From NCBI RefSeq assembly GCF_003367245.1, contig NZ_QRGR01000001.1, forward strand, positions 310,001 to 374,000: a stretch of 64,000 bases of DNA. Reading direction: 5' to 3'. This document shows, piece by piece, positions 16,165 through 43,281 of this stretch. Positions within the stretch are counted from its first letter, which is position 1. Each line of letters starts with the position of its first letter. The notes under the pieces were generated by a model that was not told the DNA's origin, did not search any database, and saw only the letters and a program-made list of their open reading frames with translations. The position numbers and the translations under genes were made by a program. The stretch comes from Pontibacter diazotrophicus. Its GTDB lineage: Bacteria > Bacteroidota > Bacteroidia > Cytophagales > Hymenobacteraceae.

Positions 16165-17537
16165 AGCAAAGTCATTTATGTATTAACAGGAGTGATTGAC
16201 TACACCGTTCGGTATAACATTTAGTAAAAATAACAACAATTAGTTGACAGTGTGCTTCCACTTCCACATGTTCTAAGGCCTTCCCCACTTTTGGATGATG
16301 AGTTTAATCAATTTTAAAGAAAATTTGTAATTTTTTTAAATCTTCTGATACACTATAAGCGCTTAGTTTCACCTAGCTAGTTCATACTATAAACATATAT
16401 GATTGAAAAGTGGGATATCCTGTAAGATTATTCCAAAAGATAACAGTTCCCTTTCACGTGCTTCCTGTTTAGCCTGTTGCTTTGAACCCCATTGGCAGGG
16501 GAGTGCGCCATCCTGTGTTTATTACACCTGCTATTAGCTCCCAGCATCTGCTTTTGCATCAGGTAAAACAGGTGCAGCCGCAGGGCTTATTAAGTATGGA
16601 CAATCGATCTTCGCTTTTCGTTCGCTTAACACCAATACTATCCAGCTAATAGCAGCTTCCGAGGTTTAGTGCCGGTGAAAAAGCGCGGCGGCGTTGAAAC
16701 ACAGGGCTATCCAAGTCATGGCTTCTCTTACAGAATTGCAAGCTTGTACCTAAGGCAGCGCCATGACCTGTACAAAGTGTGTGTGCTGGAGATGGCAGGC
16801 TTTCGTCTAAGATGTCTGTTTCTGATTATTGCCTCTAACGATCTATACTTTAAAGTCAGTAGAAGTTTGTCCTGCTTAGGTGAGGTGCTTTTATGGATTT
16901 TTCCAATAGAGGTGTGCAGCCAGTACAACTTGTTGTGGCGTGCGGGTCAAGTAACCAGTCACTATCCTTAAACTAACAACAGTTAGTAAAAAACCCCTTT
17001 CTGTTATAATTAGACATTATGTAACATGAACATAAAGATGTGTTACATGAATCTTTGTCTATGTAACATGGCATGAAACACGTGTTACAGCAATATAATC
17101 ACTTTGCCATTTTTGAATTTATATTTGTTTACATGTGAGTGAGTGATTGCTTATTCAAGCGTGGGTAATCTTGTTAATGAAGGTGTTTCGGGGTTTGCAT
17201 AAAGGTAAAAGGATATTGGTCTTAAGAAAGCAGGATGGGGAACAGGAGAAAAGTCTCTGGTGAGAAAATTTCAGAGTCAGAGGTGCAGGTACTCACCAAA
17301 TAAGGCTGTTCCAGAAGACAGTGGCCCCATCAGGTTAAAGTTAGTATCAAAAAGGGTGCACTATTGATTTTTACTATGCAGTAGGTGGCGGGGAATGGAT
17401 AGGAACTAGAAAATTCTGGAGGTGACATGCACAATCTGTCCTGGAAGGGATTTGTGGTTTGCTATCCTGGTAACTAAGTGGTGGGCTGAAGCTAAAAAGC
17501 AGGGCCATTCAAGTCGTTCAAACAAAACAATGACAAT
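16165..17537. other. 1.37-kb intergenic region between the HTCS gene and xusA
   Basis: This contains the promoter for the HTCS (not identified), the operator array and -7 box of xusA (17020-17127) and a leader of about 410 nt before the xusA start. A 100-codon open frame at 16669-16971 shows no recognisable protein features. Positions 16300-16420 are strongly AT-rich. Confidence 0.6.
17020..17127 (+). promoter_or_regulatory. Phased TGTwACA operator array with TATATTTG -7 box (copy B, xus operon)
   Basis: Heptamers TGTAACA 17020, TGTTACA 17041, TGTAACA 17062 and TGTTACA 17083 are spaced exactly 21 bp. The -7 box TATATTTG (17120-17127) begins 37 bp after the start of the last one. No properly spaced -33 TTTG is visible, as expected for an activator-dependent promoter. 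It drives xusA, whose ATG is about 410 bp downstream. The HTCS encoded next door is the likely activator (inference). Confidence 0.82.
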
Positions 17538-20500
17538 ATGAATAAATTACTACAACAAAACCTGCATAAGATAAAATATGCATTTCTCGGGGTTTGTGTT
17601 CAGTGTTTTCTAGTTGAGGTATCCTGGGCATCGGCCGTTGATTCCCCATCTAAAAGCATTGGTATGATTTCCCGTCTGCCTGATAACAGTACCTCCCGGA
17701 TAGGTAAACAAGGCGCTCCTCAGCAAGCCCTCGTCATTACCGGCAAGGTAATATTAAGTGATGATAACCAGGGGATTCCCGGGGTAAGTGTCTACTTGAA
17801 AGGCTCAAGTGTCGGTACAGTTACAGATGTGAATGGAGACTACACCATCAAAGTGCCTGCTCAGGGGGCAGTGTTGGTTTATAGCTTTATAGGGTATGCG
17901 CCTAAGGAAGTGACTGTCGGTGATCAAATGATAATCAATGTTACATTATCTGCAGATACCAAGGCTTTGCAGGAAGTGGTAGTGGTGGGGTACGGTGAAC
18001 AGAGAAAAGAAAGCGTAGTTGCCGCCATTACACAAACGACTGGTAAAGTGCTTGAGCGCGCTGGTGGAGTATCCAACATCGGTGCAGCTTTAACAGGTAA
18101 CGTACCAGGCGTGGTGACCTCAGCTAGTACAGGGATGCCGGGTGAGGAAGATCCTCGCATTGTTATTCGCGGAAGCAGCTCCTGGAACAACTCCGAACCA
18201 CTCGTGCTGGTGGATGGCATAGAGCGCCCCATGAGCAGTGTGGACATCACTTCGGTTGAGTCTGTCTCTGTATTAAAAGATGCTTCGGCTACCGCCGTTT
18301 ATGGCTCCCGGGGAGCGAACGGTGTGGTGCTTATTACCACTAAAAGAGGTCAGGCTGGAAAAGCAATCATCAGGGGGAGGGTAAACACCACCATGAAGGT
18401 TCCTTCCAAACTGCCCGGCAAGTACGATTCTTACGATGCATTAAGGATTCGCAACCAGGCAATTGAGAACGAGCTCGGGCTTAAGCCAGGAGCCTGGGGG
18501 GATTATCTTCCGCAGGAAATTCTCGACAAGTATCTTTTTCCGGCCAATGAGGAAGAAAGGGCGCAATACCCGAATGTGGACTGGGCAAACACCTTGTTTA
18601 AAGACTATGTCATGTCTTATAACGCTAGTGTCAATGTAAGTGGGGGCTCCAAGTTTGTCAAGTATTTTTCCAGTGCTGACTTCCTGCGCGAAGGAGACCT
18701 CATGCAGCAATACGATAACAACCGGGGGTACGACCCTGGTTATGGCTTTAACCGGCTGAATGTCCGCAGTAACCTTGACTTTCAGTTAACGCCTTCCACG
18801 GTTTTCAAAGCAAATCTGGCCGGTTCGCACGGGGTGAAGAAAAGCCCATGGGGAGCCACCGGTGGGGAATACGGGATGTGGATTGCTGCCTACAGCAACG
18901 CGCCCGATGCTTTCTTGCCACAGTATCCGGATGGCTCCTGGGGATATTACGCGCCCAATGAGGGTAAAGCGGAGAACTCGGTAAGAAGCCTGGCGATTAG
19001 CGGGATTCAGTACAGAACAACAACACGGCTGAATACGGATTTTACGCTGGAGCAGAACCTGGATATGTTAACCAAGGGGTTGAGCTTCAGGGGGACCCTT
19101 GCCCTGGATAATACATTTGTTGAGGCAGATAGAGGGGTAAACGATTTGTACAATGATACCCAAATGTCATGGGTTGATCCTGTTACCGGCCTGATTACCT
19201 ATAAACAAAGCTATGACCCAAACAACAGGTTTGATTTTCAGGAGGGAGTAAAATGGTCTGCCAGCCCTGGAACTGTTTTAGACAATGCTTCACAACGCAG
19301 GCTTTTTTACCAGGCTCAGCTAAACTACAACGTTACCCTTGGGGAGAAGCATAACATCACAGCCATGGGGCTTTTCAACCGGAATGAATATGCCATCGGT
19401 AGTCAAGTCCCACAGTATCGGGAAGACTGGGTGTTCCGCGCCACCTACAACTTTGCCGATAAGTACATGCTGGAGTACAATGGGGCCTACAATGGTTCAG
19501 AGAAATTTGGTAGAGACTACCGCTTTGCTTTCTTCTCCTCTGGAGGTGTTGGCTGGATGGTTTCCAGAGAAAAATTCATGGAATCCATCTCTTTTCTCGA
19601 CATGCTCAAACTACGTGCCTCTTATGGAGAAGTTGGTGATGACAATGTGTTCGGACGGTTTCTCTATATGACGCAGTGGGGGTATCAAGGCCGGGCGCGG
19701 CTTGGCATATCAGGAGAGCAGGCAGAACAGAGCCCTTATACCTGGTACAGGGAAACTGCTGTTGGGAACCCGGAGGTTCGCTGGGAAAAGGTAAGTAAAT
19801 ACAATGTCGGTCTTGACTTTGGCATTCTGAAAGGGGCAATCGATGGTAGTGTGGATTTCTTTCGCGATGAACGTACTGATATTCTCATAACCAGCGGCAG
19901 CAGGGCAATCCCGTCTTATTATGGCACAGTGGCCCCGGTAGCTAATCTTGGAAGGGTTCAAAATCAGGGCTTCGAATTTGTGCTGAACCTGAACCACACC
20001 TTCGGGAACGGGGTGAACCTGTGGTCTAACCTGAACATGACGCATGCTAAAAACAAAGTGCTTGATGCTGATGACGCAGGTTTGTTACCGGAGTATCAGA
20101 AAAGAGAAGACAAGCAGATCGGGCAGGCTTATGCTCATGTAGGCCATGGTTATTATAACACCTGGGATGAGCTCTATGCAAGCACCATTCACAATACAAA
20201 TGACAATCAAAAGTTACCCGGAAACTTCCAGATTGTCGACTATAATGCGGATGGGGTGATTGATTCATATGATAATATCCCTTACGGATTTACGGGTACC
20301 CCACAAAACACCTACAATACAACTGTTGGTGCTGACTGGAAAGGGTTTAGTGCATTCGTGCAGTTCTACGGTGTGAACAATGTGACACGGCAGGTAGTGC
20401 TGACCAGTTTAAGCTCTCAGAACCATGTCGTTTACGAAGAGGGTGGATACTGGTCAAAGGACAACACCGGTGCCGACACTCCTATGCCCCGTTGGCTTTC

Positions 20501-20774
20501 CACCCCAAGTGGCTATACTAGTGCGCACCGCTATATGTATGACGGTTCTTATCTCCGTCTGAAGAATGCGGAAATCGGCTATTCATTTAATTCTGGTTCG
20601 ATTAAAAAAATGGGGCTTAATAACCTCCGGATTTTTATAAACGGGAACAACCTCCATGTGTGGACCAAAATGCCCGACGATCGTGAATCTAATTTTGCAG
20701 GTACGGGATGGGCCTCACAGGGAGCCTACCCAACTGTAAAGCGATATAACCTAGGTGTTGATCTTACCTTCTAA
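17538..20774 (+). CDS. xusA: SusC/RagA-type TonB-dependent xylan transporter XusA
   Basis: A 1078-residue outer-membrane TonB-linked importer. An N-terminal signal region (to about 31) and a linker precede a carboxypeptidase-regulatory-like domain (about 68-145: ITGKVILSDDNQGIPGVSVY). A VVVGYGEQRKESVVAAIT segment near the TonB box follows. Then come the plug (about 170-280, with PLVLVDGIERP and SAVYGSRG-type ATAVYGSRGANGVVLITTKR) and the barrel, ending in an aromatic residue (DLTF). With the SusD-like partner it would import xylan oligosaccharides. It is the first gene of a xusABCDE-xyn10 order that is a known signature of Bacteroidota xylan utilisation. Start ATG 17538 gives the signal peptide. 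Confidence 0.93.
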   Translation: MNKLLQQNLHKIKYAFLGVCVQCFLVEVSWASAVDSPSKSIGMISRLPDNSTSRIGKQGAPQQALVITGKVILSDDNQGIPGVSVYLKGSSVGTVTDVNGDYTIKVPAQGAVLVYSFIGYAPKEVTVGDQMIINVTLSADTKALQEVVVVGYGEQRKESVVAAITQTTGKVLERAGGVSNIGAALTGNVPGVVTSASTGMPGEEDPRIVIRGSSSWNNSEPLVLVDGIERPMSSVDITSVESVSVLKDASATAVYGSRGANGVVLITTKRGQAGKAIIRGRVNTTMKVPSKLPGKYDSYDALRIRNQAIENELGLKPGAWGDYLPQEILDKYLFPANEEERAQYPNVDWANTLFKDYVMSYNASVNVSGGSKFVKYFSSADFLREGDLMQQYDNNRGYDPGYGFNRLNVRSNLDFQLTPSTVFKANLAGSHGVKKSPWGATGGEYGMWIAAYSNAPDAFLPQYPDGSWGYYAPNEGKAENSVRSLAISGIQYRTTTRLNTDFTLEQNLDMLTKGLSFRGTLALDNTFVEADRGVNDLYNDTQMSWVDPVTGLITYKQSYDPNNRFDFQEGVKWSASPGTVLDNASQRRLFYQAQLNYNVTLGEKHNITAMGLFNRNEYAIGSQVPQYREDWVFRATYNFADKYMLEYNGAYNGSEKFGRDYRFAFFSSGGVGWMVSREKFMESISFLDMLKLRASYGEVGDDNVFGRFLYMTQWGYQGRARLGISGEQAEQSPYTWYRETAVGNPEVRWEKVSKYNVGLDFGILKGAIDGSVDFFRDERTDILITSGSRAIPSYYGTVAPVANLGRVQNQGFEFVLNLNHTFGNGVNLWSNLNMTHAKNKVLDADDAGLLPEYQKREDKQIGQAYAHVGHGYYNTWDELYASTIHNTNDNQKLPGNFQIVDYNADGVIDSYDNIPYGFTGTPQNTYNTTVGADWKGFSAFVQFYGVNNVTRQVVLTSLSSQNHVVYEEGGYWSKDNTGADTPMPRWLSTPSGYTSAHRYMYDGSYLRLKNAEIGYSFNSGSIKKMGLNNLRIFINGNNLHVWTKMPDDRESNFAGTGWASQGAYPTVKRYNLGVDLTF

Positions 20775-20784
20775 ACAGCATATC

Positions 20785-22671
20785 ATGAAATCATTTATAA
20801 AAATTGTTTTAAGGTGCAGTATCGCCTTGAGCCTGGTTCTCACCACATCCTGCGAAGACTACCTTGATGTAACGGATGAATCTGTCATATCGCCCGATGA
20901 AGCTTTTGAAAACTTCAATAATTTTCAGGGCTACACGGAAGAGCTTTACCACTGCATCCCTGATTTTACCAATGCCTATTGGACTAATTCATGGAACTGG
21001 GGAGAAGACGAAATCCAGTCTTCCGCCCGTGATTTCCATTTTGGTGTTAAGATCGATAATGGAAATTTCTGGGGATGGCAGTCAGAGCATGATGGCTGGC
21101 AAGCTGGTTGGATGGACCGAAGGAACACCAATACAAACGATGACCGATTTACAAAGTCTTTATGGCAACTGGGCTGGTACGGGATACGGAAAGCCAACAT
21201 GGGACTGGAAAACCTTGATAAAATGACGGGCGCTACAGAGGAAGAGCGAAACCTGATCAAGGGGCAGTTGCTGTTCTTTAGGGGTTGGTTCCACTTCCAG
21301 TTTATGCAGTACTATGGGGGGCTCCCTTACATTGACTATGTGCTACCCAGCGATGAGAAATTAACACTGCCCCGACTCAGCTATCAGGAATGTGCCGAAA
21401 AAGCAGCGCAGGACTTCAGAGCAGCTGCCGACTTATTGCCTGCCAACTGGGACAACACTACTGCCGGCAGAAGAACTTTAGGGAAAAATGACCTGCGTAT
21501 CAACAAGGTGATGGCGCTGGGCTATCTGGGTAAAAATTACTTGTGGGCAGGCAGTCCGTTGATGAACTTTGAATCGACAGGAAGCAGAAACTATAATCCA
21601 GAACTGAGTCAGAAAGCAGCCGCGGCGTTTGCTGAGTTGCTGAATTTAGTTGAAAGCGGGGAAACTACCTATCGGCTGCTTCCTTTCGCGGAGTATTCTA
21701 AAAACTTTTATACGATGAGCCAGAACTGGCAAATGCCAGGTGGTACTGAAGCCATCTTCCGTGGGCCTTACTATGGTGCAAATGGGTCGAACTGGGGAAC
21801 CAGTAAGCAATACCAGCCCGCACCTGTTATTGCCGACGGCGATGTAAAATTTTTGCCAACATCGAATTATGTGAATTATTACGGTATGGCAAACGGGTTA
21901 CCGATAGGAGATATAACACAGGCTGACACAGAATCAGGGTATGACCCTGAGTATCCTTGGCGTGGCCGTGATCCCCGGTTTTATAATGATATCGTTTTCG
22001 ATGGAGTAAGAGTGGTGCAGGGATCTATGCCTGACAATGTTCAGCAGGATCGTCACGCTAACCTTCACACGGGGGGGAGCTACAGGAATGTTGGTACCGG
22101 AAGCCGTACCGGATACCTGCTTTACAAGTTCATCCCCCTGACAGCTAACAAATACGATAACGGATACGGCTATGGTAACAGCCTTAATATACATATCCCT
22201 TGGATGCGGTTAGCTGATATCTATATCATGTATGCAGAAGCTGCTGCGCAGGGATACGGTGCCGCCAATGGCAAAGACCCCAACTACAGCAAGACAGCTG
22301 TTGAAGCCATAAATGTTATTCGTGACAGGGCAGGCGTGGGGCACGTGGCCGATAAGTTCCAAGGTTCATTAGATGCCTTTATGGGTGAGGTGAGACGCGA
22401 ACGGGCAGTGGAACTTGCTTTTGAAGGGCACCGGTTCAATGACCTCCGTCGCTGGTTACTGTTAACCGAAAACCCTTATACGCTCAAAAAATCAATTGAA
22501 TTTGACAGGGTAGGAGACTTTAACTCAGAAGATCCGAAGCAAAACAGGGTAGTAAACCTGCATGAAGAGGTTATTCTGGAACGCAATTTCAGTAGCAAAC
22601 ACTACTGGTTACCCCTGAAAAATACCGATGTAAACATGTACCTGGAATTTGCGCAAAACCCAGGTTGGTAA
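20785..22671 (+). CDS. xusB: SusD/RagB family surface glycan-binding lipoprotein XusB
   Basis: A 628-residue outer-membrane lipoprotein partner of XusA. The lipobox is LTTSC, placing the lipidated Cys at about residue 22, followed by EDYLDVTDESVISPDEAF. Inner features of SusD proteins include TGATEEERNLIKGQLLFFRG, helical TPR-like repeats, and the C-terminal RERAVELAFEGHRFNDLRRW motif. I start at ATG 20785, ten bases after the xusA stop; an upstream in-frame alternative inside xusA lacks a signal sequence at its start. It binds oligosaccharide and acts as a lid on the transporter. Confidence 0.93.
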   Translation: MKSFIKIVLRCSIALSLVLTTSCEDYLDVTDESVISPDEAFENFNNFQGYTEELYHCIPDFTNAYWTNSWNWGEDEIQSSARDFHFGVKIDNGNFWGWQSEHDGWQAGWMDRRNTNTNDDRFTKSLWQLGWYGIRKANMGLENLDKMTGATEEERNLIKGQLLFFRGWFHFQFMQYYGGLPYIDYVLPSDEKLTLPRLSYQECAEKAAQDFRAAADLLPANWDNTTAGRRTLGKNDLRINKVMALGYLGKNYLWAGSPLMNFESTGSRNYNPELSQKAAAAFAELLNLVESGETTYRLLPFAEYSKNFYTMSQNWQMPGGTEAIFRGPYYGANGSNWGTSKQYQPAPVIADGDVKFLPTSNYVNYYGMANGLPIGDITQADTESGYDPEYPWRGRDPRFYNDIVFDGVRVVQGSMPDNVQQDRHANLHTGGSYRNVGTGSRTGYLLYKFIPLTANKYDNGYGYGNSLNIHIPWMRLADIYIMYAEAAAQGYGAANGKDPNYSKTAVEAINVIRDRAGVGHVADKFQGSLDAFMGEVRRERAVELAFEGHRFNDLRRWLLLTENPYTLKKSIEFDRVGDFNSEDPKQNRVVNLHEEVILERNFSSKHYWLPLKNTDVNMYLEFAQNPGW

Positions 22672-22715
22672 AACGGACGATAATTGAAAATGCTTTAGTC
22701 TAAAAAGAGGACAAA

Positions 22716-25700
22716 ATGAAATATAAACATATAAGAATGTTTTTGTGTGCTGTGGTGGCTTTTTCTCCGGTGATGCTAAAAGCGCAGACAACCAGTAAGG
22801 TTGATATCATGGCCATTATTCGCGGGGCTGAAGGAAAACCCCTTCGAGGTGCCGTAGTTACCAACCTGGCGGATGCCGTCAACACAGTTACGGACTCTCT
22901 GGGGACGTTTTCCCTTTTAGTAACTCCCAATTCCATTTTATCGGTGAGTGCTCCCGGATACGAAACATTGTCTGTAGAAGCGACACCTGATTTAAATGAA
23001 ATATCCCTGGCGTCCGACAAAAGCGCTCAGCCGGTACAGGTGGCTTTCCGGAAAGTCGCCCAAAAGAACCTGCTCGGAGGTGTCTCGGCTGTTAACGTTC
23101 CAGGTATCCTGAGAGAAAATTATTTCACCAACAGCTTAGAAGACCTGGAAGCCTACGTAGGAGGCTTTAACGGCGCTAACATATGGGGAATGGACAGCTA
23201 CCTGGTACTGGTAGATGGGATACCCCGTGATGCCGAAAGTGTGCTGCCCACGGAAATAGAACAGGTAACTTTTCTAAAAGGAGTGTCGGCCGTGGCCCTG
23301 TACGGAAGTCGGGCTGCCAAAGGAGTGGTTTATATCAGTACAAAAAGGGGAGAGGCTCAGGATCAGCAAATCAATGTACGGGTAAACGCTGGCGTGTTCG
23401 TGCCAAAGAGTTATCCTAAGTACCTTGGCTCCGCGGAATATATGACCCTTTATAATGAGGCGCGCCGCAACGACGGACTGGATGACCTGTATACGGGTGC
23501 CACCATTTATAACCATTCCTCCGGAACGAATCCTTACCGCTATCCGAATCTCGATTACTATTCATCGGAGTACCTGCAGGAAACCTACAACCGTTACGAT
23601 GGTACGGTCGAAATTTCGGGAGGTAACCAGCAAGCCCGCTACTACACTAACGTGGGTTTCAATTCTGCAGGTTCTCTTTTGAATTTTGGTGAGGCAAAAA
23701 ACAACGGGAATGAACGCTTCAACATCCGCGGAAACGTGGACATTGATCTGAATAAGTATATCTATGCGAAGGTAGATGCCGCAGCCATTTACAATAGTGG
23801 GCGGGGCGTAAACACCAACTATTGGACTGGTGTTGCCTCCCTTCGTCCGCACCGGTTCTCACCACTTATCCCTGTCAGCATGATAGAAGAGAGCGATGAG
23901 ACTTCGTGGCAACTGGTAAACAATAGCAACAACCTAATAGATGGCAAATATCTTCTCGGTGGAACCCAGTTAGACCAAACAAACCCCTTTGCGTCCATCT
24001 ATGCCGGAGGGAATAATAAGTATACCAGCCGTCAGTTTCAGTTTAACACGGGAGTGGGTGCAAATTTAGAAAATGTGCTGAAAGGGCTGTCCTTCCTGTC
24101 AAACTTTGGAGTGGATTACTCCACCTCCTATAACCAGTCTTTCAATAATAACTATGCCGTGTATGAAGCGGCATGGAACAACTACGCCGGATACGACCAG
24201 ATCAGTAGCCTCACAAAATATGGTGAGGATTCAAAAACAGGTGTTCAGAACATTAGTAACAGCTGGTACCGCCAAACAATTGCCTTTTCAGGGCAATTCA
24301 ACTACCTGGCCTCAGTGAACGAGAACCACCATATTTCCGCTATGCTGATAGCGAATGGGTATCAACAGTCAGTGTCGGAGGTGTACCACAAAACAAGCAA
24401 TGCAAACCTGGGGCTGCATTTAGGTTACAACTACCTGGATAAGTACTATGTTGATTTTAATGGCGCGATGGTGCACTCTGCCCGATTACCGGAAGGTAAC
24501 CGCCAGGCTTTTTCGCCCACCCTCGCGCTGGGCTGGCGCATCAGTGAAGAAGGCTTCATGGAGGATTTACCTGCAGTTGACAACCTGAAGTTATCGGTAT
24601 CGGGAGGCGTATTGCATACTGACCTTAACATACCCGGTTACTATTTGTATCAAAGCATATACACACAGACAGACGGGGCATGGTACAGTTGGAGAGACGG
24701 TGCCCTTAACCGGACCACGGACTCAAGGCGTGGAGAGAACCCTAATCTCACTTTCTCTAAAAGAGAAGAAGTCAATGTTACCCTGGAAGGATCTTTTCTT
24801 AAAAGACTGTTAACGTTCGAAGGGTCCCTTTTTGCGAACAGGATAACGGGTAATGCTGTGCAGGCTTCTGTTTTATATCCGAGCTACTTTTCTACAGGCT
24901 GGCCGAATTCTTCCTTTATTCCCTACATCAACTATAACGATGACCAGCGGCTGGGCTTTGACTTCAATGTTAATTTGAACAAACGCATGGGGGAGATAGA
25001 CTGGACATTAGGGATGGCAGCAACTTACTATAGAACTGAAGCCACCAAGCGTGCAGAAATGTACGAAAATGAATACCAGAGCAGACAGGGCAGACCGCTG
25101 GACGCAATTTGGGGACTTAGAAGCGATGGGTTCTTTATGAGTCAGGAAGAAATAGACGGTTCACCTACTCAGGCATTCGGCCAGGTGAAACCGGGAGATA
25201 TCAAATACTTTGATCAGAACGGTGACGGTGTCATCGATTCCCAGGATGAGGTTTACCTCGGAAAAGGTGGTTGGTACGGAGATCCTCTTACATTGGGTCT
25301 TAACCTGACTGCTAAGTGGCGAAACCTGACTTTCTTGGCCTTGGGTGTTGGCCGCTTTGGCGCGCACGCCCAGAAAAACAACTCCTACTTCTGGGTAGAC
25401 GGAGAGGATAAATATTCGGAAGTGGTACGCGAGCGGTGGACCGAAGGAACCATGAACACGGCAACGTACCCACGCCTGACGACACTGAACAGTGACAACA
25501 ACTTCCGCTCTTCCGACTTCTGGCTTTACAGCACAAACCGGTTTGACCTGGCTAAAGTGCAGGTGTCCTATGATCTTCCTGAACGCATACTGCAGAACAC
25601 CTTTATTCATGAATGGGGTGTGTATCTGAGTGGTTCCAACCTGCTTACAGTTTCTCCGGAACGTGAAGTGTTGGAGTTGAATGTCGGAAGCTCTCCTCAG

Positions 25701-25739
25701 ACACGGTTTTACAATTTCGGGGTTAAAGCATTATTCTAA
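22716..25739 (+). CDS. xusC: Second SusC-like TonB-dependent transporter XusC
   Basis: A 1007-residue SusC paralogue with a signal peptide (MKYKHIRMFLCAVVAFSPVM, cleaved near KAQ). A carboxypeptidase-regulatory-like domain (about 30-90), a plug with SYLVLVDGIPRDAESVLPTE and VALYGSRAAKGVVYISTKRG, and a large barrel ending FGVKALF follow. It lacks the classical VVVGYG stretch seen in XusA. It begins 44 bp after xusB. Two tandem SusCD pairs of unlike sequence are the usual form of the xus operon and may take oligosaccharides of different size. Confidence 0.92.
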   Translation: MKYKHIRMFLCAVVAFSPVMLKAQTTSKVDIMAIIRGAEGKPLRGAVVTNLADAVNTVTDSLGTFSLLVTPNSILSVSAPGYETLSVEATPDLNEISLASDKSAQPVQVAFRKVAQKNLLGGVSAVNVPGILRENYFTNSLEDLEAYVGGFNGANIWGMDSYLVLVDGIPRDAESVLPTEIEQVTFLKGVSAVALYGSRAAKGVVYISTKRGEAQDQQINVRVNAGVFVPKSYPKYLGSAEYMTLYNEARRNDGLDDLYTGATIYNHSSGTNPYRYPNLDYYSSEYLQETYNRYDGTVEISGGNQQARYYTNVGFNSAGSLLNFGEAKNNGNERFNIRGNVDIDLNKYIYAKVDAAAIYNSGRGVNTNYWTGVASLRPHRFSPLIPVSMIEESDETSWQLVNNSNNLIDGKYLLGGTQLDQTNPFASIYAGGNNKYTSRQFQFNTGVGANLENVLKGLSFLSNFGVDYSTSYNQSFNNNYAVYEAAWNNYAGYDQISSLTKYGEDSKTGVQNISNSWYRQTIAFSGQFNYLASVNENHHISAMLIANGYQQSVSEVYHKTSNANLGLHLGYNYLDKYYVDFNGAMVHSARLPEGNRQAFSPTLALGWRISEEGFMEDLPAVDNLKLSVSGGVLHTDLNIPGYYLYQSIYTQTDGAWYSWRDGALNRTTDSRRGENPNLTFSKREEVNVTLEGSFLKRLLTFEGSLFANRITGNAVQASVLYPSYFSTGWPNSSFIPYINYNDDQRLGFDFNVNLNKRMGEIDWTLGMAATYYRTEATKRAEMYENEYQSRQGRPLDAIWGLRSDGFFMSQEEIDGSPTQAFGQVKPGDIKYFDQNGDGVIDSQDEVYLGKGGWYGDPLTLGLNLTAKWRNLTFLALGVGRFGAHAQKNNSYFWVDGEDKYSEVVRERWTEGTMNTATYPRLTTLNSDNNFRSSDFWLYSTNRFDLAKVQVSYDLPERILQNTFIHEWGVYLSGSNLLTVSPEREVLELNVGSSPQTRFYNFGVKALF

Positions 25740-25762
25740 TAGGTATTTGAACATTCAAGAAT

Positions 25763-27511
25763 ATGAAAAAGAGATTACTGTTATTTTTATCGGTCGCCTT
25801 GATGGTAAGCAGCTGCGAGGATATGTTTGAACCCAGCATAGAAAACCTACGGGGCCTTGACGATATGTATGAGGAGGCAGAGTATGCCCAGGGATTTCTT
25901 CTGAACGGCTATGCTCGTATCCCGACCAACGGATGGTCCTTCAGTGATATGGCCACGGATGATGCTGTCAGCAACAACAGGAGTAACAACTATTTGAAAG
26001 TAGCCACCGGGCAGTGGACAGCTAATAACAACCCGTTTGATCAGTGGAGCAATTCCAAAGCAGCCATTCAATATCTGAATATCCTGCTTCAGGAAGGAGA
26101 CAAAGTGGCTTGGGCCAAAGATGAGAATGTAAGCCAAATGTTTAAGGACCGCATGAAAGGTGAAGCGTACGGGTTACGGGCACTCTTCATGTTTCATTTG
26201 TTGCAGAACCATGGAGGGTGGAGTCAAAGCGGTGAATTGTTAGGTGTTCCGATTGTATTGGAACCCGAGAACAAGGACTCAGACTTCAATAAACCGCGGG
26301 CAACATTTGAGGAATGCATGCAGCAGATTTACAGCGATGTGAAGAAAGCAGAAGAACTTCTTCCTCTGGATTTTGAGGGTATATCAGACGAATCGGAACT
26401 GCCTGCTAATTACAGCGGTAACATGGACGACTACAACCGCGTGTTTGGCCAGTACGCACGCCAGCGTATGACAGCCCGTATCGCGAAGGCAGTCAGAGCG
26501 CAAGCCGCTTTGTTGGCTGCAAGCCCTGCCTATAACACAGGTAACAGTACTACCTGGGCTGATGCTGCAAACTACGCAGGGGAAGTGCTGGATCTGAATG
26601 GAGGTGTAAATGGACTGGACCCTAATGGTTCGACCTGGTACTCCAATGTTGCAGAAATTGCTGGTTTGGCCGCAGGTATCAATCCTCGTGAGATTCTTTG
26701 GAGAAGCGATGTCTCTGAAGATAATGATCTGGAACGACAGCATTTCCCCCCTACGCTGTATGGAAACGGACTGTTGAATCCCTCTCAAAACCTGGTGAAT
26801 TCCTTCCCGATGGCAAACGGCTATCCCATTACAGATGCGTCCAGCGGGTTTGATCCTTCGGCACCATACACCAACCGTGATCCGCGTTTACAGCGCTACA
26901 TACTGGTGAACGGAGGCACGGCCGGACCAGGTAATTCCAACATCATCACGGCAGTGGATGGTACTACCAATGATGCCCTTAACAGGGTAGAAACATCCAC
27001 ACGCACAGGATACTACATGCGAAAGCTACTTCGCCAGGATGTGAACCTTAACCCGACAACGACGAACAGGCAAAAGCACTATAAGCCCCGCATTCGTTAC
27101 ACGGAGCTCTACCTTGCCTATGCCGAAGCTGCCAATGAAGCCTGGGGGCCGATGGGCACGGGTGCTTTTGGGTTTTCTGCCTATGATGTCATAGCCGCTA
27201 TCCGCAAGCGTGCTGGTATTGCCCAACCTGATGCTTACCTGGAGTCTGTTCAGTCAGACAAAGAGGCCATGCGGGCGCTTATCAGAAACGAACGCAGGTT
27301 AGAGTTGTGCTTTGAGGGTTTTCGCTTTTGGGATTTGCGCCGATGGAACGAAGACCTTACGGAAACAGCCAGGGGTGTTCGGATCGAAAACGAAAACCAT
27401 GAGACGATACCAGTAGAGGCCAGGGTGTATGGAAGCTATATGAATTATGGCCCTCTCCCATACAGCGAAGTCTTGAAATTCGACGCGCTTTCTCAAAATG
27501 TGGGATGGTAA
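25763..27511 (+). CDS. xusD: Second SusD-like glycan-binding lipoprotein XusD
   Basis: A 582-residue SusD-family lipoprotein; the lipobox VSSC (Cys19) follows a short hydrophobic signal. The family's RNERRLELCFEGFRFWDLRR motif sits near the C-terminus, and the mid-region helices MKGEAYGLRALFMFHLLQNH match the SusD TPR core. The start lies 23 bp after the xusC stop. It is the partner of XusC in xylan-fragment capture at the cell surface. Confidence 0.92.
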   Translation: MKKRLLLFLSVALMVSSCEDMFEPSIENLRGLDDMYEEAEYAQGFLLNGYARIPTNGWSFSDMATDDAVSNNRSNNYLKVATGQWTANNNPFDQWSNSKAAIQYLNILLQEGDKVAWAKDENVSQMFKDRMKGEAYGLRALFMFHLLQNHGGWSQSGELLGVPIVLEPENKDSDFNKPRATFEECMQQIYSDVKKAEELLPLDFEGISDESELPANYSGNMDDYNRVFGQYARQRMTARIAKAVRAQAALLAASPAYNTGNSTTWADAANYAGEVLDLNGGVNGLDPNGSTWYSNVAEIAGLAAGINPREILWRSDVSEDNDLERQHFPPTLYGNGLLNPSQNLVNSFPMANGYPITDASSGFDPSAPYTNRDPRLQRYILVNGGTAGPGNSNIITAVDGTTNDALNRVETSTRTGYYMRKLLRQDVNLNPTTTNRQKHYKPRIRYTELYLAYAEAANEAWGPMGTGAFGFSAYDVIAAIRKRAGIAQPDAYLESVQSDKEAMRALIRNERRLELCFEGFRFWDLRRWNEDLTETARGVRIENENHETIPVEARVYGSYMNYGPLPYSEVLKFDALSQNVGW

Positions 27512-27563
27512 CAGAAGTTGAAGTTTATTCCAATTACCTACTAAATCAGAATTAAAATAAGGA

Positions 27564-28595
27564 ATGATGAAAAATATATGCTTTGGGCTTTTGCTCTTAC
27601 TAGCCACCCTGTCTTCATGTGAAAACAAAGAATGGGTGTTCCCGGATTACGAATACCAGTCAACCTATTTCGCTTATCAGTATCCTGTGCGCACCATCGT
27701 CTTGGGGGAGGACATTTTTGACACTTCACTTGACAATGAGCACAAGTTCAAGGTAATGGCTACGACAGGAGGTGTTTACGACAATTCAAAAGATGTAACC
27801 ATTGATGTAGTGGTGGATAACACACTGGCTGAAGGCTTGCTTTTCACAGAGGGGGGAACGGAAGTTCTGCCTTTGCCCAGTAACTACTATACATTGGCAT
27901 CAGACAAGATTGTCATTCCAAAGGGGGAACTGATAGGCGGGGTTGAAGTACAACTCACCGATGCCTTCTTTGCTGATCCGCTGGCTCTAAAGAACACTTA
28001 TGTTCTTCCGATGTACATGACGAATGTCGTGAATGCAGATTCTATTTTGTCAGGTAAGCCATTGGTTGAAAACCCAAGAAGGGTGGTTGCAACAAATTGG
28101 AGTGTCGCTCCGAAAGATTACGTCTTGTATGCGGTAAAGTATGTAAACCCATGGCACGGGATATACCTTCGCAGAGGCAAAGATGTAATAGCAGGGAAGA
28201 ATGAAGATAGATCACTGGACCAGACTATTGTCAGACAAAAACAATATGTGGAGCAAGATGAAGTCATCAAGTTAGCGACTCAGTCATTAGGTGAGGTAGA
28301 GTTGCCGCTGGTATTTAAGAACAGCGAGGGAGAGAATATCGATGCGACCCTACTGCTGCACTTTGATGAGCAAGGTAACATTACAGTACGAGCCGGTTCA
28401 GAGGGTTACACAGCTACTGGTAGCGGAAAGTTTGTGAAAAGAGGAGAAAAGAATAGCTGGGGCAGTAAAGACCGCGACGCCATCTATCTGCAATATGAGG
28501 TTGATTTAGAGGAGATGCACGTTGCCTCTACCGATACCTTGGTGTTGCGGGATCGCGGGGTCGCCATGGAAACATTCTCTCCGGTAATCAAATAA
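27564..28595 (+). CDS. xusE: DUF1735/DUF5627-type surface lipoprotein XusE
   Basis: A 343-residue lipoprotein (lipobox LSSC, Cys20). Residues 28-45 read FPDYEYQSTYFAYQYPVR, the typical opening of the DUF1735 Ig-like domain (to about 150), followed by a C-terminal DUF5627-like beta domain. Position and wording match XusE, the hypothetical between the second SusD and the GH10 xylanase in other xylan loci. It probably binds xylan at the cell surface (inference). The start is ATG 27564 or the ATG one codon later. Confidence 0.82.
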   Translation: MMKNICFGLLLLLATLSSCENKEWVFPDYEYQSTYFAYQYPVRTIVLGEDIFDTSLDNEHKFKVMATTGGVYDNSKDVTIDVVVDNTLAEGLLFTEGGTEVLPLPSNYYTLASDKIVIPKGELIGGVEVQLTDAFFADPLALKNTYVLPMYMTNVVNADSILSGKPLVENPRRVVATNWSVAPKDYVLYAVKYVNPWHGIYLRRGKDVIAGKNEDRSLDQTIVRQKQYVEQDEVIKLATQSLGEVELPLVFKNSEGENIDATLLLHFDEQGNITVRAGSEGYTATGSGKFVKRGEKNSWGSKDRDAIYLQYEVDLEEMHVASTDTLVLRDRGVAMETFSPVIK

Positions 28596-28621
28596 TTTTT
28601 ATGTAGTTAGAACAAAACCAT

Positions 28622-30775
28622 ATGAGACAATTATATAAAATTTTGCTTTGCGTTTCTGGTTTAGCGATGGTAACGGCTTGTGACGATGATGATCCGCTGG
28701 ATTTCCACGTTGATAAACCAGTAGAGTTTGCATTGCAGGAGGAGATTAATGCCTATGCAGATCTTAAAACCTATGTAGACCGGGAAGCCAATCCAGCTTT
28801 TAAGTTAGGCGCGGGTGTGTCCTTGTCCGGCTACACGCAGAAAGGTGTCATGTACAGGCTTGTTAACAGTAATTTCGATGAAATTACTTTGATGAACGGG
28901 ATGAGTCATGGGGCAATCGTTCAGGCAGACGGCAGCCTGAACCTTAATAATGTGAATGGTTTGCTGACTACAGCTGAAAAGGCGGGCACTACAATTTACG
29001 GTCACACACTTGGCTGGCATCGTAATCAGAATGCTGCTTACCTGAACGGCTTACTTTCTCCCCTGATTGTGGAGTCGCCCCCCTTTGCCAACTCCTTGGA
29101 TGTTTCTGGCCTTACAGCAGGAACTTTGGAAGGATGGACAAATACAGGTGGAGGAGCAAGCGCATCGGTAGTGGAAAATGAAGGAATGGGCGGTGGAGTA
29201 AAAGCCGTGAAACTGACTTCGGGTGCCGGCTCATCTGCACCGGAGGACTTGCAACTGGTAACTCCGGAAATCCCGGTGGTGCCAGGGCATGAATACGAGA
29301 TTGTTTTTTACCTTAAGTCAGATGTTCCCGGAGAAGGTCGTATCACTTTTGAAGGATTGATGAATAATACGCCACAGAAAGACTGGATGAATACCGGCGA
29401 GGAAACGGAAACCTTTACCACCAATCTCGGCTGGAAGGAAATTAGGTTCAGGATCAGTGATTTTGAGGGCGAATCCATCAAAATCCGGTTTGACCTGGGC
29501 TATGTTCCCAATGTAACCTATTACCTGGATGTCAATAACCTTTATGTGTATGATACACAAGGTGACCCTATCAAAAATAACCTGATTGCAAACGGCGACT
29601 TTGAGTCAGGAACTGGCTGGGGAGGCTGGGGTAACAGCTCCACAAGAGGTGTGACAGAAGATGGCCAGGGTGCCGGTAATGAAGGTCGGGCCTTCTATGT
29701 TACGAATCCATCCACTACCAGTGGTTACTGGGAAGTTCAGACATCCTACGAGCTACCCGAGCCGCTGGAGAATGGAGAAACCTATAACCTGAGCTTCTGG
29801 GTAAAAGGCGATGCAGAAGGCATTATCAGGCCTGAGTTGCAGAGCCCTAATTATTCTTCGGATGGCTTTGGAATGGTGAATGTGACAAAGGAATGGAAAC
29901 TCGTGAACATTTCCACAACCGCAACGGCAGCTGACAGAAGCCGCTTTGTCATAAGTTATGGTGAGTTTGCCGGAACGGTTCATCTTGATAATGTCAGTCT
30001 GAGCAGTGCTTCTTTATCCGGAGGCACAACTACGGTGGTCCAAAGAACCCCGGAAGAAAAAGAAGCAATAATTGCCGGGCAGTTGGAGCACTGGATTTCT
30101 GGCATGGTCACCAATAGTGCCCCCTATGTAAAAGCATGGAATGTAGTGAACGAACCCATGGATGAGGCAAAACCAAATGAACTTAAAACAGGGATAGGCA
30201 GAACTGGTTTAGCTGCGGATGAATTTTATTGGCAGGACTACCTTGGAAAGGATTATGGCGTAAAGGCCTTTCAGTTAGCCAGGAAGTATGGAAATGAAAA
30301 TGATCTGTTGTTTATCAATGACAACAACCTCGAGTCTAACCTGGATAAATGCCGTGGGTTAATTGAATATGTGACCTATTTGGAAAGCAAAGGGGCAAGA
30401 GTGGATGGAATAGGAACCCATATGCACCTTAACTTGAATTCGGATAAGGAGCAAATTGCAGAGATGTTCCAGCTGCTGGCCAATACAGGAAAGCAAATAA
30501 AGGTATCTGAGTTAAACGTCGCGGTAGGGGTGACGACAGACGCAGCCACGGAAGAGGATTACAGAGCTCAGGAAGAGATGTACCAGTATGTGGTAGGGAA
30601 ATACCTGGAAATTGTTCCTGCCAGTCAGCGCTATGGCATAACCGTATGGAGCCCGACAGACAGTCCTAAAACTGCTTCCTGGCGTGCCAATGAGCCGGTT
30701 GGGCTTTGGACAGAGGGTTTTGTCCGGAAACCAGCTTATCCAGGAGTTGCCAAAGGGCTAAGTGGAGCGAAATAG
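28622..30775 (+). CDS. xyn10A: Surface GH10 endo-1,4-beta-xylanase with carbohydrate-binding modules inserted in the catalytic domain
   Basis: A 717-residue lipoprotein (Cys20 in VTACDDDD) that cleaves the xylan backbone. The GH10 barrel starts at about residue 55, is interrupted at about 155-465 by two CBM4/22-like jelly-roll modules (the second opening ANGDFESGTGWGGWGNSS), then resumes. The acid/base is Glu511 in WNVVNEPMDE and the nucleophile Glu630 in QIKVSELNVAV. This split architecture is known for Bacteroidota xyn10 enzymes next to xusE, which act at the cell surface to feed XusA-D. It is the last gene of the xus operon. Confidence 0.93.
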   Translation: MRQLYKILLCVSGLAMVTACDDDDPLDFHVDKPVEFALQEEINAYADLKTYVDREANPAFKLGAGVSLSGYTQKGVMYRLVNSNFDEITLMNGMSHGAIVQADGSLNLNNVNGLLTTAEKAGTTIYGHTLGWHRNQNAAYLNGLLSPLIVESPPFANSLDVSGLTAGTLEGWTNTGGGASASVVENEGMGGGVKAVKLTSGAGSSAPEDLQLVTPEIPVVPGHEYEIVFYLKSDVPGEGRITFEGLMNNTPQKDWMNTGEETETFTTNLGWKEIRFRISDFEGESIKIRFDLGYVPNVTYYLDVNNLYVYDTQGDPIKNNLIANGDFESGTGWGGWGNSSTRGVTEDGQGAGNEGRAFYVTNPSTTSGYWEVQTSYELPEPLENGETYNLSFWVKGDAEGIIRPELQSPNYSSDGFGMVNVTKEWKLVNISTTATAADRSRFVISYGEFAGTVHLDNVSLSSASLSGGTTTVVQRTPEEKEAIIAGQLEHWISGMVTNSAPYVKAWNVVNEPMDEAKPNELKTGIGRTGLAADEFYWQDYLGKDYGVKAFQLARKYGNENDLLFINDNNLESNLDKCRGLIEYVTYLESKGARVDGIGTHMHLNLNSDKEQIAEMFQLLANTGKQIKVSELNVAVGVTTDAATEEDYRAQEEMYQYVVGKYLEIVPASQRYGITVWSPTDSPKTASWRANEPVGLWTEGFVRKPAYPGVAKGLSGAK

Positions 30776-30957: not shown

Positions 30958-30971
30958 ACATCCAGCTAAAA

Positions 30972-31080
30972 TGTTACATGGGAGCAAGTATATGTTACAA
31001 TCCATTCTATCAATGTAACATGATGTAAAACGCCTGTACCACAAACAGGTATACTTTCTTTTACTAATTATATAAATTTG
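30972..31080 (+). promoter_or_regulatory. Phased TGTwACA operator array with TAAATTTG -7 box (copy C)
   Basis: Heptamers TGTTACA 30972, TGTTACA 30993 and TGTAACA 31014 and a degenerate TGTACCA-like site at 31035 are all 21 bp apart. The -7 box TAAATTTG (31073-31080) begins 38 bp after the last. It drives the second GH10 gene and probably the GH97 gene behind it. Orientation of the second heptamer differs from copies A and B. Confidence 0.75.
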
Positions 31081-31223: not shown

Positions 31224-32378
31224 ATGATGAAAAGAGGAATATTAAATAAATCAATAGTAGCTATTCTTGGAGTTGTTCTTCTCTGTGGCGGCTGTAAGGT
31301 CGCCAACACAGGTGCTGCTGAAACCAATACCGCCGAACTAACGCTCAAGGACGCCTACAAAAACAAGTTTTACATTGGTACAGCGCTCAACACCCAGCAG
31401 ATTACAGGCCAGGACACGGCAGCCATCAAGGTGGTGAAGCAGCATTTCAATGCGGTTGTTGCCGAGAACATCATGAAGAGTGGGTTGATCCAAGCAAGAG
31501 AGGGTGAATTCCGATTTGACCTGGCTGACCAGTTTGTGGCGTTCGGTGAGCAGAACAACATGTACATCAACGGACATACGCTCATCTGGCACTCGCAGCC
31601 GCCACGTTGGTTCTTCACCGACAGCCTGGGCAATGATGTGTCGCGTGAAGTGATGATCCAGCGCATGAAAGACCACATCTACACTGTTGTCGGCCGTTAC
31701 AAAGGGCGGGTGAACACTTGGGATGTGGTGAATGAGGCTATCATGGACGACGGGTCTTGGAGGAAAACTAAGTTCTATGAAATCATCGGTGAAGATTTTG
31801 TAAAGCTGGCCTTCCAGTTTGCCCATGAGGCCGACCCTGATGCAAAGTTGATGTACAACGACTACTCTATGGCCCTGCCAGGCAGAAGAAACGGTGTGGT
31901 GGCCATGGTAAAGGATCTGCAGCAGCAGGGTGTGCGGATAGACGGGATCGGCATGCAGGGCCATATAGGCTTAGACCATCCCTCCCTCGAGGAGTTTGAA
32001 AAGAGTCTTCTTGCCTTTTCTGACCTGGGGCTGGAAGTTTCCATTACCGAGCTGGACCTCTCTGCGCTTCCTTCTCCAAGACGGAATGTAGGGGCCGATG
32101 TGGCTACCAGTTTTGAATACCAGCAAAGCTTGAACCCATATACCGAAGGACTTCCTGATTCCGTGACGGAGGCATTCAACGCACGTTATGTGGATTTCTT
32201 TAAGCTCTTTTTAAAGCATCAGGATAAGATTACCAGGGTGACACTTTGGGGCGTAAACGATGGGCAATCCTGGAAAAACAACTTTCCTGTCAGAGGCAGG
32301 ACAGACTATCCCCTGCTTTTCGACAGAGAAAATCAACCAAAGTCCGTCGTTAAGGCTCTTATTCAGGTTGCTCAATAA
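31224..32378 (+). CDS. GH10 endo-1,4-beta-xylanase, lipoprotein
   Basis: A 384-residue single-domain GH10 xylanase. The lipobox is LLCGGC (Cys24). The substrate-site signature [17 protein letters not shown] is at about 114-130, the acid/base Glu171 is in [12 protein letters not shown], and the nucleophile Glu276 is in [11 protein letters not shown]. It would cut imported xylo-oligosaccharides in the periplasm or at the membrane. It has its own operator array (copy C), and the GH97 gene starts 11 bases after its stop, so they form one unit. Confidence 0.93.
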
Positions 32379-32388
32379 AAAGATTATC

Positions 32389-34347
32389 ATGAGTTCAGAA
32401 GGTGTAAAAAGATCATTTCAGCTTTTGTTTTTTTTATTTACCCTAATGCCATGCCTGGCACAGGCACAAAACGGCACAGTCAAAAGTCCTGACGGACAAC
32501 TCCAGGTAGAGGTGTTCCTGCAAAGTGGGCAGCCTTTTTATCGTGTCTCGTTTAAAGGTGAGGCAGTCATGGAGGATTCTCCTTTAGGGCTGGTCACCAA
32601 CCTCGTTGATTACTCCAAAGAACTGACATGGGAAGGCACAGAGCAGGAAGCTATCGAGGAAACATATAGGCAGGATAAGATAAAGCAATCCGAAATTCAA
32701 TACCAGGCCAATAAACTGGTTTGCGCCTTAAAAAACAAAGACGGCAAACAGCTGAAGGTTGAGTTTAGAGTCAGCAATAATGACATAGCCTTTCGGTATG
32801 ATATCCCGGCATCCGGAGAGCCGCTGGCCCTTGTTGTGGAGAGGGAGGCAACCGGGTTCAATTTACCGCAGGGCGCGAAGGGATTTCTGTCACCGCAGTC
32901 GAAGAGCATGGTTGGCTTTGCACGGACAAAGCCCAGCTATGAAGAGGGATATCAGATAGAACAGGACATGGCAGCTCAATCAGCAAACGGACTGGGCTAT
33001 ACCTTTCCATGCCTCTTTCAGATTGGCGAAAAATGGGCGATGATTTCTGAAACCGGTGTGCGGGGGCTTTACTGCGGTTCTCATTTAAGTGATCCGACGC
33101 CTGATGGAATCTATACCATTGCATTTCCTGACGAGACAGAGAACAACGGATTCGGAAGCACTGGCGCAGCCATCGGCCTGCCAGCCACAACTCCCTGGCG
33201 AACCATTACCGTTGGGCAGGGCCTGAAGCCCATTGTAGAAACAACCATTCCCTACGATGTGGTAGAACCCCTGTACGAGCCTTCTGTAGACTATGCGTAC
33301 GGCAAAGGAACGTGGAGCTGGATTATGTGGCAGGACCAGAGCATGAAGTATGAGGACCAGGTTACATATGTTGATTTGGCGGCGAACTTAGGATACGAGT
33401 TTATTTTAATAGATGCGCTGTGGGATCAGCGCATTGGCTATGAGCGCATGGAGGCGTTGATTGAATATGCACGGACCAAAAATGTAGGGGTTTTCCTCTG
33501 GTACAACTCCAACGGTGTAGTTAATGATGCTCCCCAGACTCCCATCAACAAAATGAACACGGCCATCGCCCGGAAAAAGGAAATGTAGTGGATGAAGAAA
33601 AATGGTGTAAAGGGCATCAAAGTGGATTTCTTCGGAGGCGATAAGCAAGAGACCATGCGTTTATATGAGGATATCTTATCAGATGCCAATGATTATGGTT
33701 TGATGGCGGTTTTTCATGGGACGACGCTGCCGCGCGGGTGGGAACGCATGTTTCCTAACTATGTGGGAAGTGAAGCTGTTCTGGCATCTGAGAACCTGAT
33801 GTTCAGCCAGCGAGCCAATGATATGGAGGCATTGCATGCCACCCTGCATCCATTTATAAGAAATGCCGTGGGCAGCATGGAATTTGGCGGTGTGGTTTTA
33901 AACAAGCGCTATAACCGGACCAATGACGGAGGAAATTACAGGAAAACAACCGACGTATTTCAGCTGGCCACTGCCATCCTTTTTCAGAACCCGGTACAGT
34001 TTTTTGCCCTGACGCCCAATAACCTGAGCGACGCCCCGGATTTCGCAATTGATTTTATGAAGCAGGTACCTACTACATGGGATGAGACTATGTTCATCGA
34101 CGGGTATCCTGGTAAGTATTGTGTCCTGGCCCGACAGCACGGAGATAAATGGTATGTAGCAGGGGTTAATGCCCTTTCAGAACCTGTTAAGTTAAAAATA
34201 AGTGTACCTATGCTTTCTGGAAAAGAGGTAAAGCTGTATGGAGACCGTAAAGACGGAACCAGCTATATGAAACGGGTGAAGGTTAATAAAAAAGGAGAGC
34301 TGGCAATTGAGATTCAGTCGCAGGGTGGCGTGGTTTTAGAGCAATAG
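32389..34347 (+). pseudogene. GH97 glycoside hydrolase interrupted by one in-frame amber codon
   Basis: A full-length GH97 gene (about 652 codons, signal peptide ending near AQAQ) broken only by TAG at 33586-33588, codon 400. The same frame continues as WMKKNGVKGIKVDFFGGDKQ. Asp413 in KVDFFGG aligns with the nucleophile of retaining GH97 alpha-galactosidases. Glu462/Glu468 in YVGSEAVLASENLMF lie where the acid/base is expected. The part before the stop carries the N-terminal beta-sandwich and the first half of the barrel, so a truncated product would be inactive. It may be a recent nonsense mutation, a sequencing error or a read-through site. In xylan loci GH97 can remove alpha-D-galactose caps. 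It starts 11 bp after the GH10 gene. Confidence 0.85.
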
Positions 34348-38103: not shown

Positions 38104-38134
38104 GAGACTTTCATAATATTAAGACTTTACTTCA

Positions 38135-38811: not shown

Positions 38812-38892
38812 AGAATGTATTCTCTGTCATCTTTCTGCGTTACAGGAAATACAAGTCATCCATAGATAGAATTGATTTTTCAGCATCGCTAA

Positions 38893-38961
38893 ACCACCGG
38901 CCAGCTTATACACGTGGACGGAGGCTATGTACACCTGGATCGGGCAATGGTAAATGCTTGA
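38893..38961 (+). pseudogene. C-terminal fossil of a short-chain dehydrogenase (SDR)
   Basis: Twenty-two codons read TTGQLIHVDGGYVHLDRA followed by MVNA and a stop. This is the unmistakable C-terminal end of SDR sugar dehydrogenases (GQ-x-x-HVDGGY). An in-frame TAA sits directly before it (38890-38892), and no Rossmann fold or YxxxK can be found upstream. The tail HVDGGYVHLDRA is typical of L-fucose/L-rhamnose-type dehydrogenases, so an aldose dehydrogenase gene has been lost just before the LgoD-like gene. Confidence 0.75.
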
Positions 38962-38984
38962 AGCAACCTATAACATCAAAGTAT

Positions 38985-40001: not shown

Positions 40002-40117
40002 TATACTTAAGAATTTTGGATAAACTCATTCAAGCATCTTCGTGATAAGTAGCGCTTATTGAAGGTCAGTAAGCTGCAGGTAGCATATGATTAGAAATCT
40101 TAAAGCTATAAACAAGG

Positions 40118-42598: not shown

Positions 42599-43281
42599 GA
42601 GAACACATGAGCTATTCACCGGTCTGGGTGCGATTGCACCTCGCCTCCTGTTTTCAATGGCGGCAGCAGAACAGCGGATGCTGAAAGCAGAGGCAGCCTG
42701 ATGAAAGCGGCTAAGGTTCATCCGTACCCCAAAATCGATTGGAAGTAATTTAAATCTATGAGAATAAAAGGCTTTATTCCGCCTGAGCGGCACCATCTGT
42801 TATCGGGAAGTAAAATAAGGAGGCACAGGAGAGTCACATTGTAATGGCTTAAAAATACGTTCATGATGGCCTTAATGTAACATGGTCAAAAGTACCTGTA
42901 ACATGAAAAGTGTTCTGTAAGGGTTCAGTTGTATATATTTGATTGCTGAGAGCGAGATAGTTTTTAGAAATTTTCGCTGGTAGTATCTGATTATGAAATA
43001 TACTACAAAGGGATAATGAACTGATACTTTTAGAATGGCGATGAAATGTATGCTGATGGCACAGGCGTGAATGCTGCGTGTGTACCATTATCCACCACAT
43101 GATAACCGCTTTTTGTTTTGCATGGCAGGCTGGTGACTGACATCGCAGTGTTGGAACTGCAGGCACGTCAGCAGATGTGTTGGCCCTGAGTTTCTGGTGA
43201 AAGTGGCAATGATACTGTTTCCTGTTCATGGGGTTTCAGTTCGGGGATTCCTGTTAACCTATTTAAACAACTAATCAACAG
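42599..43281. other. Intergenic region before GH51: operator array and long leader
   Basis: No gene is recognised in these 680 bp. Copy D of the phased operator with its -7 box lies at 42876-42941, leaving a leader of about 340 nt before the GH51 start. The first 100 bp after GH95 are GC-rich without recognisable coding content. Confidence 0.6.
42876..42941 (+). promoter_or_regulatory. TGTwACA operator pair with TATATTTG -7 box (copy D)
   Basis: TGTAACA at 42876 and TGTAACA at 42897 are 21 bp apart, and TATATTTG (42934-42941) begins 37 bp after the start of the second, the same geometry as the other three copies. The two distal sites present in copies A-C are not recognisable. It directs transcription to the GH51 gene. 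Confidence 0.72.

Follow-up and report, generated by a model that had tools for sequence, protein, structure and literature searches.

Regularly spaced TGTWACA arrays as candidate operators of a xylan hybrid two-component regulator in Pontibacter diazotrophicus

How are the separate promoters of a xylan locus brought under common control? This question is raised by a stretch of 64,000 nucleotides from Pontibacter diazotrophicus (Hymenobacteraceae; RefSeq assembly GCF_003367245.1, contig NZ_QRGR01000001.1, positions 310,001 to 374,000), here called the window. It carries a gene for a hybrid two-component system (HTCS), the genes xusA-E with a CBM4-GH10 gene (17538-30775), a second GH10, a GH97, two GH43, a GH95 and a GH51 gene, and further genes, the names being based on Pfam and context. 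According to the original prediction, heptamers TGTAACA or TGTTACA (TGTWACA) start exactly 21 bp apart before xusA, the second GH10 and GH51, a -7 promoter box TAnnTTTG starts 37 or 38 bp after the start of the final heptamer, and the neighbouring HTCS, with its AraC-type domain, is the obvious candidate regulator. The heptamers and their steps were found where claimed, including the degenerate fourth unit of one array, the counted box distances agree, and the annotated downstream genes are indeed the three named (Table 1). An additional array precedes a gene for an HA-domain repeat protein, which brings the number of promoters to four. Arrays with this spacing and register are linked to HTCS genes across the phylum, and those of the window are very probably operators of the xylan HTCS that serve phosphorylation-dependent activation of class II type; as to binding, occupancy, ligand and direction of control, this is what we infer from sequence comparison.

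Rarity and anatomy of the arrays

The original prediction called for a whole-genome scan and would have been weakened by many such arrays at unrelated promoters. This was not the case: the 6.4-Mb genome contains 11 exact TGTWACA pairs at 21 bp, nine of which lie inside the window, and no pair of the reversed pattern, while neither of the two outside pairs has a box in register. These two stray pairs (L001, L011), with no in-register box on either strand and no glycan gene by eye, were judged to be chance occurrences, and their counterparts in genome G013 (L242, L238) were rejected as operators on the same grounds. When two mismatches were allowed, the genome-wide count (136) was close to that of the control (125), so that such scanning was rejected as noise and only near-exact arrays, being the informative ones, were used.

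The same arrangement recurs in relatives. An HTCS orthologue with 72-100% identity was detected by tblastn in 12 of 200 genomes of the family, and 32-64 kb were read around the gene in each. These neighbourhoods (570,772 bp) contain 120 exact heptamers, and among spacings of up to 130 bp the distance of 21 bp is represented by 42 pairs, 42 bp by 25 and 63 bp by 8, all other distances occurring at most once; 20 first-order Markov simulations gave a mean of 65 heptamers and not a single 21-bp pair. Defined as at least two exact heptamers, with boxes ignored, arrays are present in every neighbourhood, 25 in total after removal of one duplicate box (341093). A TAnnTTTG box lies at 37/38 bp, or at 58/59 bp where the terminal unit has decayed, in 23 of the 25 arrays, on one strand only and never on both; the remaining two arrays carry TACATTAG at 37 bp. 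The proximal unit of these predicted promoters thus has a fixed place by the -33/-35 region in 23 of 25 cases, as expected for a class II-type arrangement.

The repeated unit consists of TGTWACAT followed by a weak A-rich stretch at positions 15-17, the remainder being near random, and in the xusA promoters of seven relatives the heptamers are 0.93-1.00 identical, against 0.45-0.74 for the spacers. When the units are numbered from the box outward, exact copies are present in 12 of the 25 arrays at the nearest position, in 21 at the second, in 20 at the third and in 19 at the fourth, so it is the second site, rather than the nearest, that is best kept. The original prediction further remarked that a -33 element is not needed if an activator recruits the polymerase. 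TTTG at a spacer of 18-22 bp is indeed rare (2 of 25 array promoters), but this argues only weakly for an activator, because a -33 motif could not be identified in Flavobacterium johnsoniae either, according to the part of that study consulted (PMC7366714).

Association with HTCS genes

The encoded protein has the full hybrid architecture in one chain, with a propeller sensor, HisKA, HATPase, receiver and AraC-type helix-turn-helix (HTH) domains (Pfam), and sequence relatives of the sensor and of the receiver and DNA-binding domain have been solved (4a2l, 3v9f, 12aw). Its assignment as regulator is supported in the family by arrays in all 12 orthologue neighbourhoods and by the distribution of exact triples of the heptamer, which occur in 8 of the 200 genomes (reversed control 0/200). 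All eight belong to the 12 genomes with an orthologue, and none to the 188 without (Fisher p = 9e-12, calculated with relatedness ignored, which overstates independence because the genomes are related). With at most three candidates scored per genome, further tblastn matches among those listed were 29-41% identical and often partial. The targets in the family are xusA, the second GH10, GH51 and the HA-domain gene, to which G075 adds a GH43 gene; for an array in G127 (37026), no downstream open reading frame (ORF) was reported. The candidate operator is kept together with the HTCS orthologue across genomes, with G399 as an exception and weak cases in G540 and Parabacteroides.

Support for the same assignment also comes from loci of more distant homologues, from unlinked xylan genes and from a scan of the phylum. 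HTCS relatives with 43-53% identity occur in other families, in G435 (two copies), G590, G540 and G399, and Bacteroides oleiciplenus has one with 52% identity. The array and its register are repeated in G435, G590, G540 (where the box is TACTTTTA) and B. oleiciplenus, before xusA, GH43 and GH115 genes and once before an unmatched ORF of 454 amino acids. A weaker case of the same register was seen on a Dysgonamonadaceae contig (L063); a less strict box score cut-off applied to G540, G590 and L063. The HTH1 helix reads SRVHLHRK in the 12 family orthologues and SRMQLHRK in most homologues linked to TGTTACA, and it is SRMQLFRK at a locus with GTTACCA in the same place. The P. diazotrophicus genome itself has at least one other HTCS-like gene (contig C47, 33% identical, with one stop inside the match and HTH1 SRVHLYKK), and Reg_prop ORFs are also present on contigs C11 and C87.

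Whole genomes were scanned for pairs in 19 cases picked from HTCS loci. Ten of these genomes contributed a total of 32 pairs (reversed control 3); the box lies at 37/38 bp in 12 pairs, at 58/59 in 3 and, with one or two units decayed, at 79/80 in 5; one of the last five falls inside an ORF and is doubtful. The genes behind boxes at 37/38 include those for a CE15 glucuronyl esterase (B. oleiciplenus), GH51 and GH3 (RUG10994) and an acetylesterase (G590, box at 37), and behind boxes at 79/80 there are a PF00756 esterase, an MFS sugar transporter and a GH42/35-like fragment; 4 of 10 proteins encoded behind arrays in these genomes had no Pfam match. The CE15, GH51, GH3 and acetylesterase genes are either separated from the HTCS by 2.7 Mb or found on a different contig, and inheritance of the polysaccharide utilization locus (PUL) alone is therefore insufficient as an explanation for them. 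A GH115 gene of G125, 50 kb from the HTCS and with its box at 79, is a further distant target with an array in register. In 80 named HTCS loci (1.55 Mb) only three exact pairs were found, one near the HTCS start in L099 and two in L066; a de novo search for 8-mer repeats in nine relatives gave matches only in L075. An exact pair of B. oleiciplenus at 9815-9842 of L066, without a box in register, lies upstream of the HTCS gene itself, for which autoregulation is a possible but unsupported idea.

Across 395 genomes of the phylum, a pair with a box at 37/38 occurs at 16 places in nine genomes (reversed control 0/395), and at 14 of these places an HTCS-like gene is found within 27 kb. Exact triples were detected in the own genome only (1/395, reversed control 2/395), so that triples mark the family and pairs travel further. 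Seven of the nine genomes have no orthologue at the search cut-off, and each of their 10 places lies at most 16 kb from a different HTCS-like gene, 30-36% identical (tblastn) over at least the kinase, receiver and DNA-binding domain, as judged from the alignments rather than from domain scans. At seven of these 10 places (7/16 overall) the box lies 82-192 bp past the end of the HTCS match. The genes behind the 10 places match secreted or outer-membrane families (FG-GAP/CHU_C, OmpA, S74) or have no match (4/10), and none matches a glycosidase, which indicates that the geometry extends to HTCSs beyond those for xylan. The array code is thus not exclusive to xylan but serves other HTCS-like genes and other targets elsewhere. 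The HTCS-like genes at L259-L266 represent a different kind, whose similarity mostly begins at the kinase, and their pairs in register consist of TGTTACA.

A letter-blind test on the 80 loci, from which heptamers within two mismatches of TGTWACA were excluded, gave 28 repeats at a lag of 21 bp when offsets 34-38 were summed, as compared to 0-14 at other lags and 2, 1 and 8 with control anchors; counted by boxes, 13 of 387 were positive versus 2/226, 1/180 and 4/144 in controls. With respect to a generality of 21-bp repeats beyond TGTWACA, this result is suggestive only.

Mechanism, known systems and rival explanations

In the proposed mechanism, the periplasmic propeller would sense xylo-oligosaccharides, after which the kinase would phosphorylate the fused receiver and thereby free the C-terminal AraC-type domain. 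Monomers of this domain may sit head to tail on the 21-bp units, on one face of the helix, with a dimer occupying two units, in which case an array of four has room for two dimers. From its place 37-38 bp before the -7 box, the gene-proximal unit would face the -33 region of the polymerase, giving class II activation comparable to that by AraC at araI2. Among published HTCSs, a receiver and DNA-binding domain fragment of BT0366 shifts its target promoters (PMC5061871, consulted in part). The araI1-I2 sites of araBAD likewise are two direct half-sites 21 bp apart, the proximal one by the -35 region, but the sigma factor and -7 box are different here, the regulator is membrane-bound and activated by phosphorylation, and up to four units are present.

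HTCS operators of the direct-repeat kind are known. In the parts of Ravcheev et al. (2013; PMC3878776) that were covered, direct repeats with a mean tandem distance of 21 bp are predicted for 16 of 36 HTCSs of B. thetaiotaomicron, belonging to AraC-type regulators, situated beside susC/susD and compatible with dimers on one DNA face. The arrays described here share the approximately 21-bp direct repeat and the position upstream of susC/susD or other HTCS-linked glycan genes; the published motifs are two-site and concern other glycans, whereas here up to four TGTWACA units stand in a register of 37/38 bp. The main text of PMC3878776 nowhere uses the words 'transcription start', 'activator' or 'promoter element', and the parts covered, supplements and logos excluded, contain neither a xylan HTCS motif nor a fixed -7 box distance. 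In B. xylanisolvens, knock-out of the PUL 43 HTCS BXY_29350 lowers expression of a CBM4-GH10 xylan PUL, and unlinked xylan genes also require it (PMC4855328), a division of targets like the one proposed here; the sections consulted give no operator sequence. A literature search, with subscription papers, supplements and RegPrecise outside its scope, returned no xylan HTCS operator and no fixed -7 box distance. What is added to the known kind of site are the heptamer letters, the arrays of three to four units and the box register.

Several observations weigh against control by the HTCS through these sites. Because the HTCS is inherited along with the PUL, co-occurrence within the family does not by itself identify the HTCS as the regulator, and TGTWACA is itself palindromic, so that the direct orientation depends on flanking letters and the box. 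The 39.8 kb at the HTCS locus of G399 (49% identical) contain no array, the whole genomes of G399 and G540 have no exact pair, and in Parabacteroides (HTCS 56%) the closest pair lies some 20 kb away and has its box at 79. Boxes in register are missing from 12 of the 32 pairs in the 19-genome scan, and two of the phylum-wide places, both in G590, have no HTCS in the fetched 20.5 and 8.1 kb. Among 51 exact pairs in the 12 whole family genomes (reversed control 2), 42 are in the neighbourhoods, and only one of the nine elsewhere is in register (G125, before a GH115 gene 50 kb from the HTCS, box at 79), which implies that isolated pairs can be due to chance. Finally, the HTCS G435a has SRVHLYRK as HTH1 yet TGTWACA arrays, and because of this exception no clean recognition code between HTH1 and heptamer emerges from the comparison.

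The palindromic heptamer would also suit another regulator that is co-inherited with the PUL, such as the TetR-family protein encoded in the window (7309-7860) or a stand-alone AraC-type protein, and one stray pair indeed lies beside an apparent gene of the latter type (by eye). This is unlikely, since the 10 boxed pairs in the seven orthologue-free genomes are all close to another HTCS-like gene and a direct spacing of 21 bp is the arrangement published for HTCSs. A still lower probability is given to the HTCS acting on the arrays as a repressor that lets go when xylan is present. Repression has been proposed for another arabinoxylan HTCS, according to the text consulted of PMC7815789, but the effect of the BXY_29350 knock-out is the opposite of what repression would give, and the arrays lie upstream of the -7 box without covering it. 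Moreover, in the portion consulted of PMC11253607, receiver and DNA-binding domain fragments of BT4124 and BT4663 bind susCD promoters in a phosphorylation-dependent way, a dependence relieved by interface changes. That the arrays are inherited sequence without function can hardly be credited: arrays 1 and 2 are alike around the box (by eye), suggesting promoter duplication, but the heptamers are kept while the spacers diverge, and one register is common to unrelated promoters.

With activation by the HTCS as the preferred explanation, the near-exact operator and its fixed register may allow xylan regulons, unlinked genes included, to be recognized from sequence alone and orphan HTCSs to be paired with their targets. 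There is about an even chance that a single grammar holds for HTCS promoters of Bacteroidota, in which 21-bp head-to-tail units, the nearest 37 ±1 bp before the -7 box, replace the -33 element and carry HTCS-specific TGnnnCA heptamers. If so, HTCS regulons would follow from a sequence scan, which would also match every sensor to the genes under its control.

Other features of the window

Table 1 Arrays, -7 boxes and associated genes of the window
Feature	Position	Strand	Remarks
Operator array 1 (candidate)	9327-9396	+	four exact TGTWACA units, starts 9327/9348/9369/9390, 21-bp step
-7 box of array 1, TATATTTG	9427-9434	+	37 bp after last-unit start
HA-domain repeat gene behind array 1	9982-11679	+	565 amino acids; eight HA-domain stretches (Pfam)
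HTCS, candidate regulator	12055-16164	-	1369 amino acids; Reg_prop/Y_Y_Y sensor, HisKA, HATPase_c, Response_reg, AraC-type HTH_18 (Pfam)
Operator array 2 (candidate)	17020-17089	+	four exact units, starts 17020/17041/17062/17083
-7 box of array 2, TATATTTG	17120-17127	+	37 bp after last-unit start
xusA-like SusC gene	17538-20774	+	first gene of xus operon
Operator array 3 (candidate)	30972-31041	+	exact units 30972/30993/31014, then TGTACCA at 31035
-7 box of array 3, TAAATTTG	31073-31080	+	38 bp after last-unit start
Second GH10 gene	31224-32378	+	
Operator array 4 (candidate)	42876-42903	+	two exact units, starts 42876/42897
-7 box of array 4, TATATTTG	42934-42941	+	37 bp after last-unit start
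GH51 alpha-L-arabinofuranosidase gene	43282-44820	+	Pfam assignment

The HA-domain protein has no Pfam match except HA. A homologue (E <= 1e-60) is encoded in 5 of the 12 orthologue genomes; G000, G013 and G125 have the gene together with an array of its own, and in the last two it is likewise beside the HTCS. Small minus-strand ORFs at 8677-9219, ending about 110 bp before array 1, resemble broken parts of an IS3-type transposase (by eye).

The GH97 gene (32260-34347) occupies two frames, with the break at about 33590, in contrast to the single ORF of 653-663 amino acids in relatives; the split may represent a frameshift or a sequencing error. After the xylan locus, a defence-like group is present on the minus strand (49117-61959), composed of a short HsdM piece, a Schlafen AlbA_2 protein, McrC, an EVE-AAA McrB-like protein and a DEAD/UvrD double helicase of 1610 amino acids.

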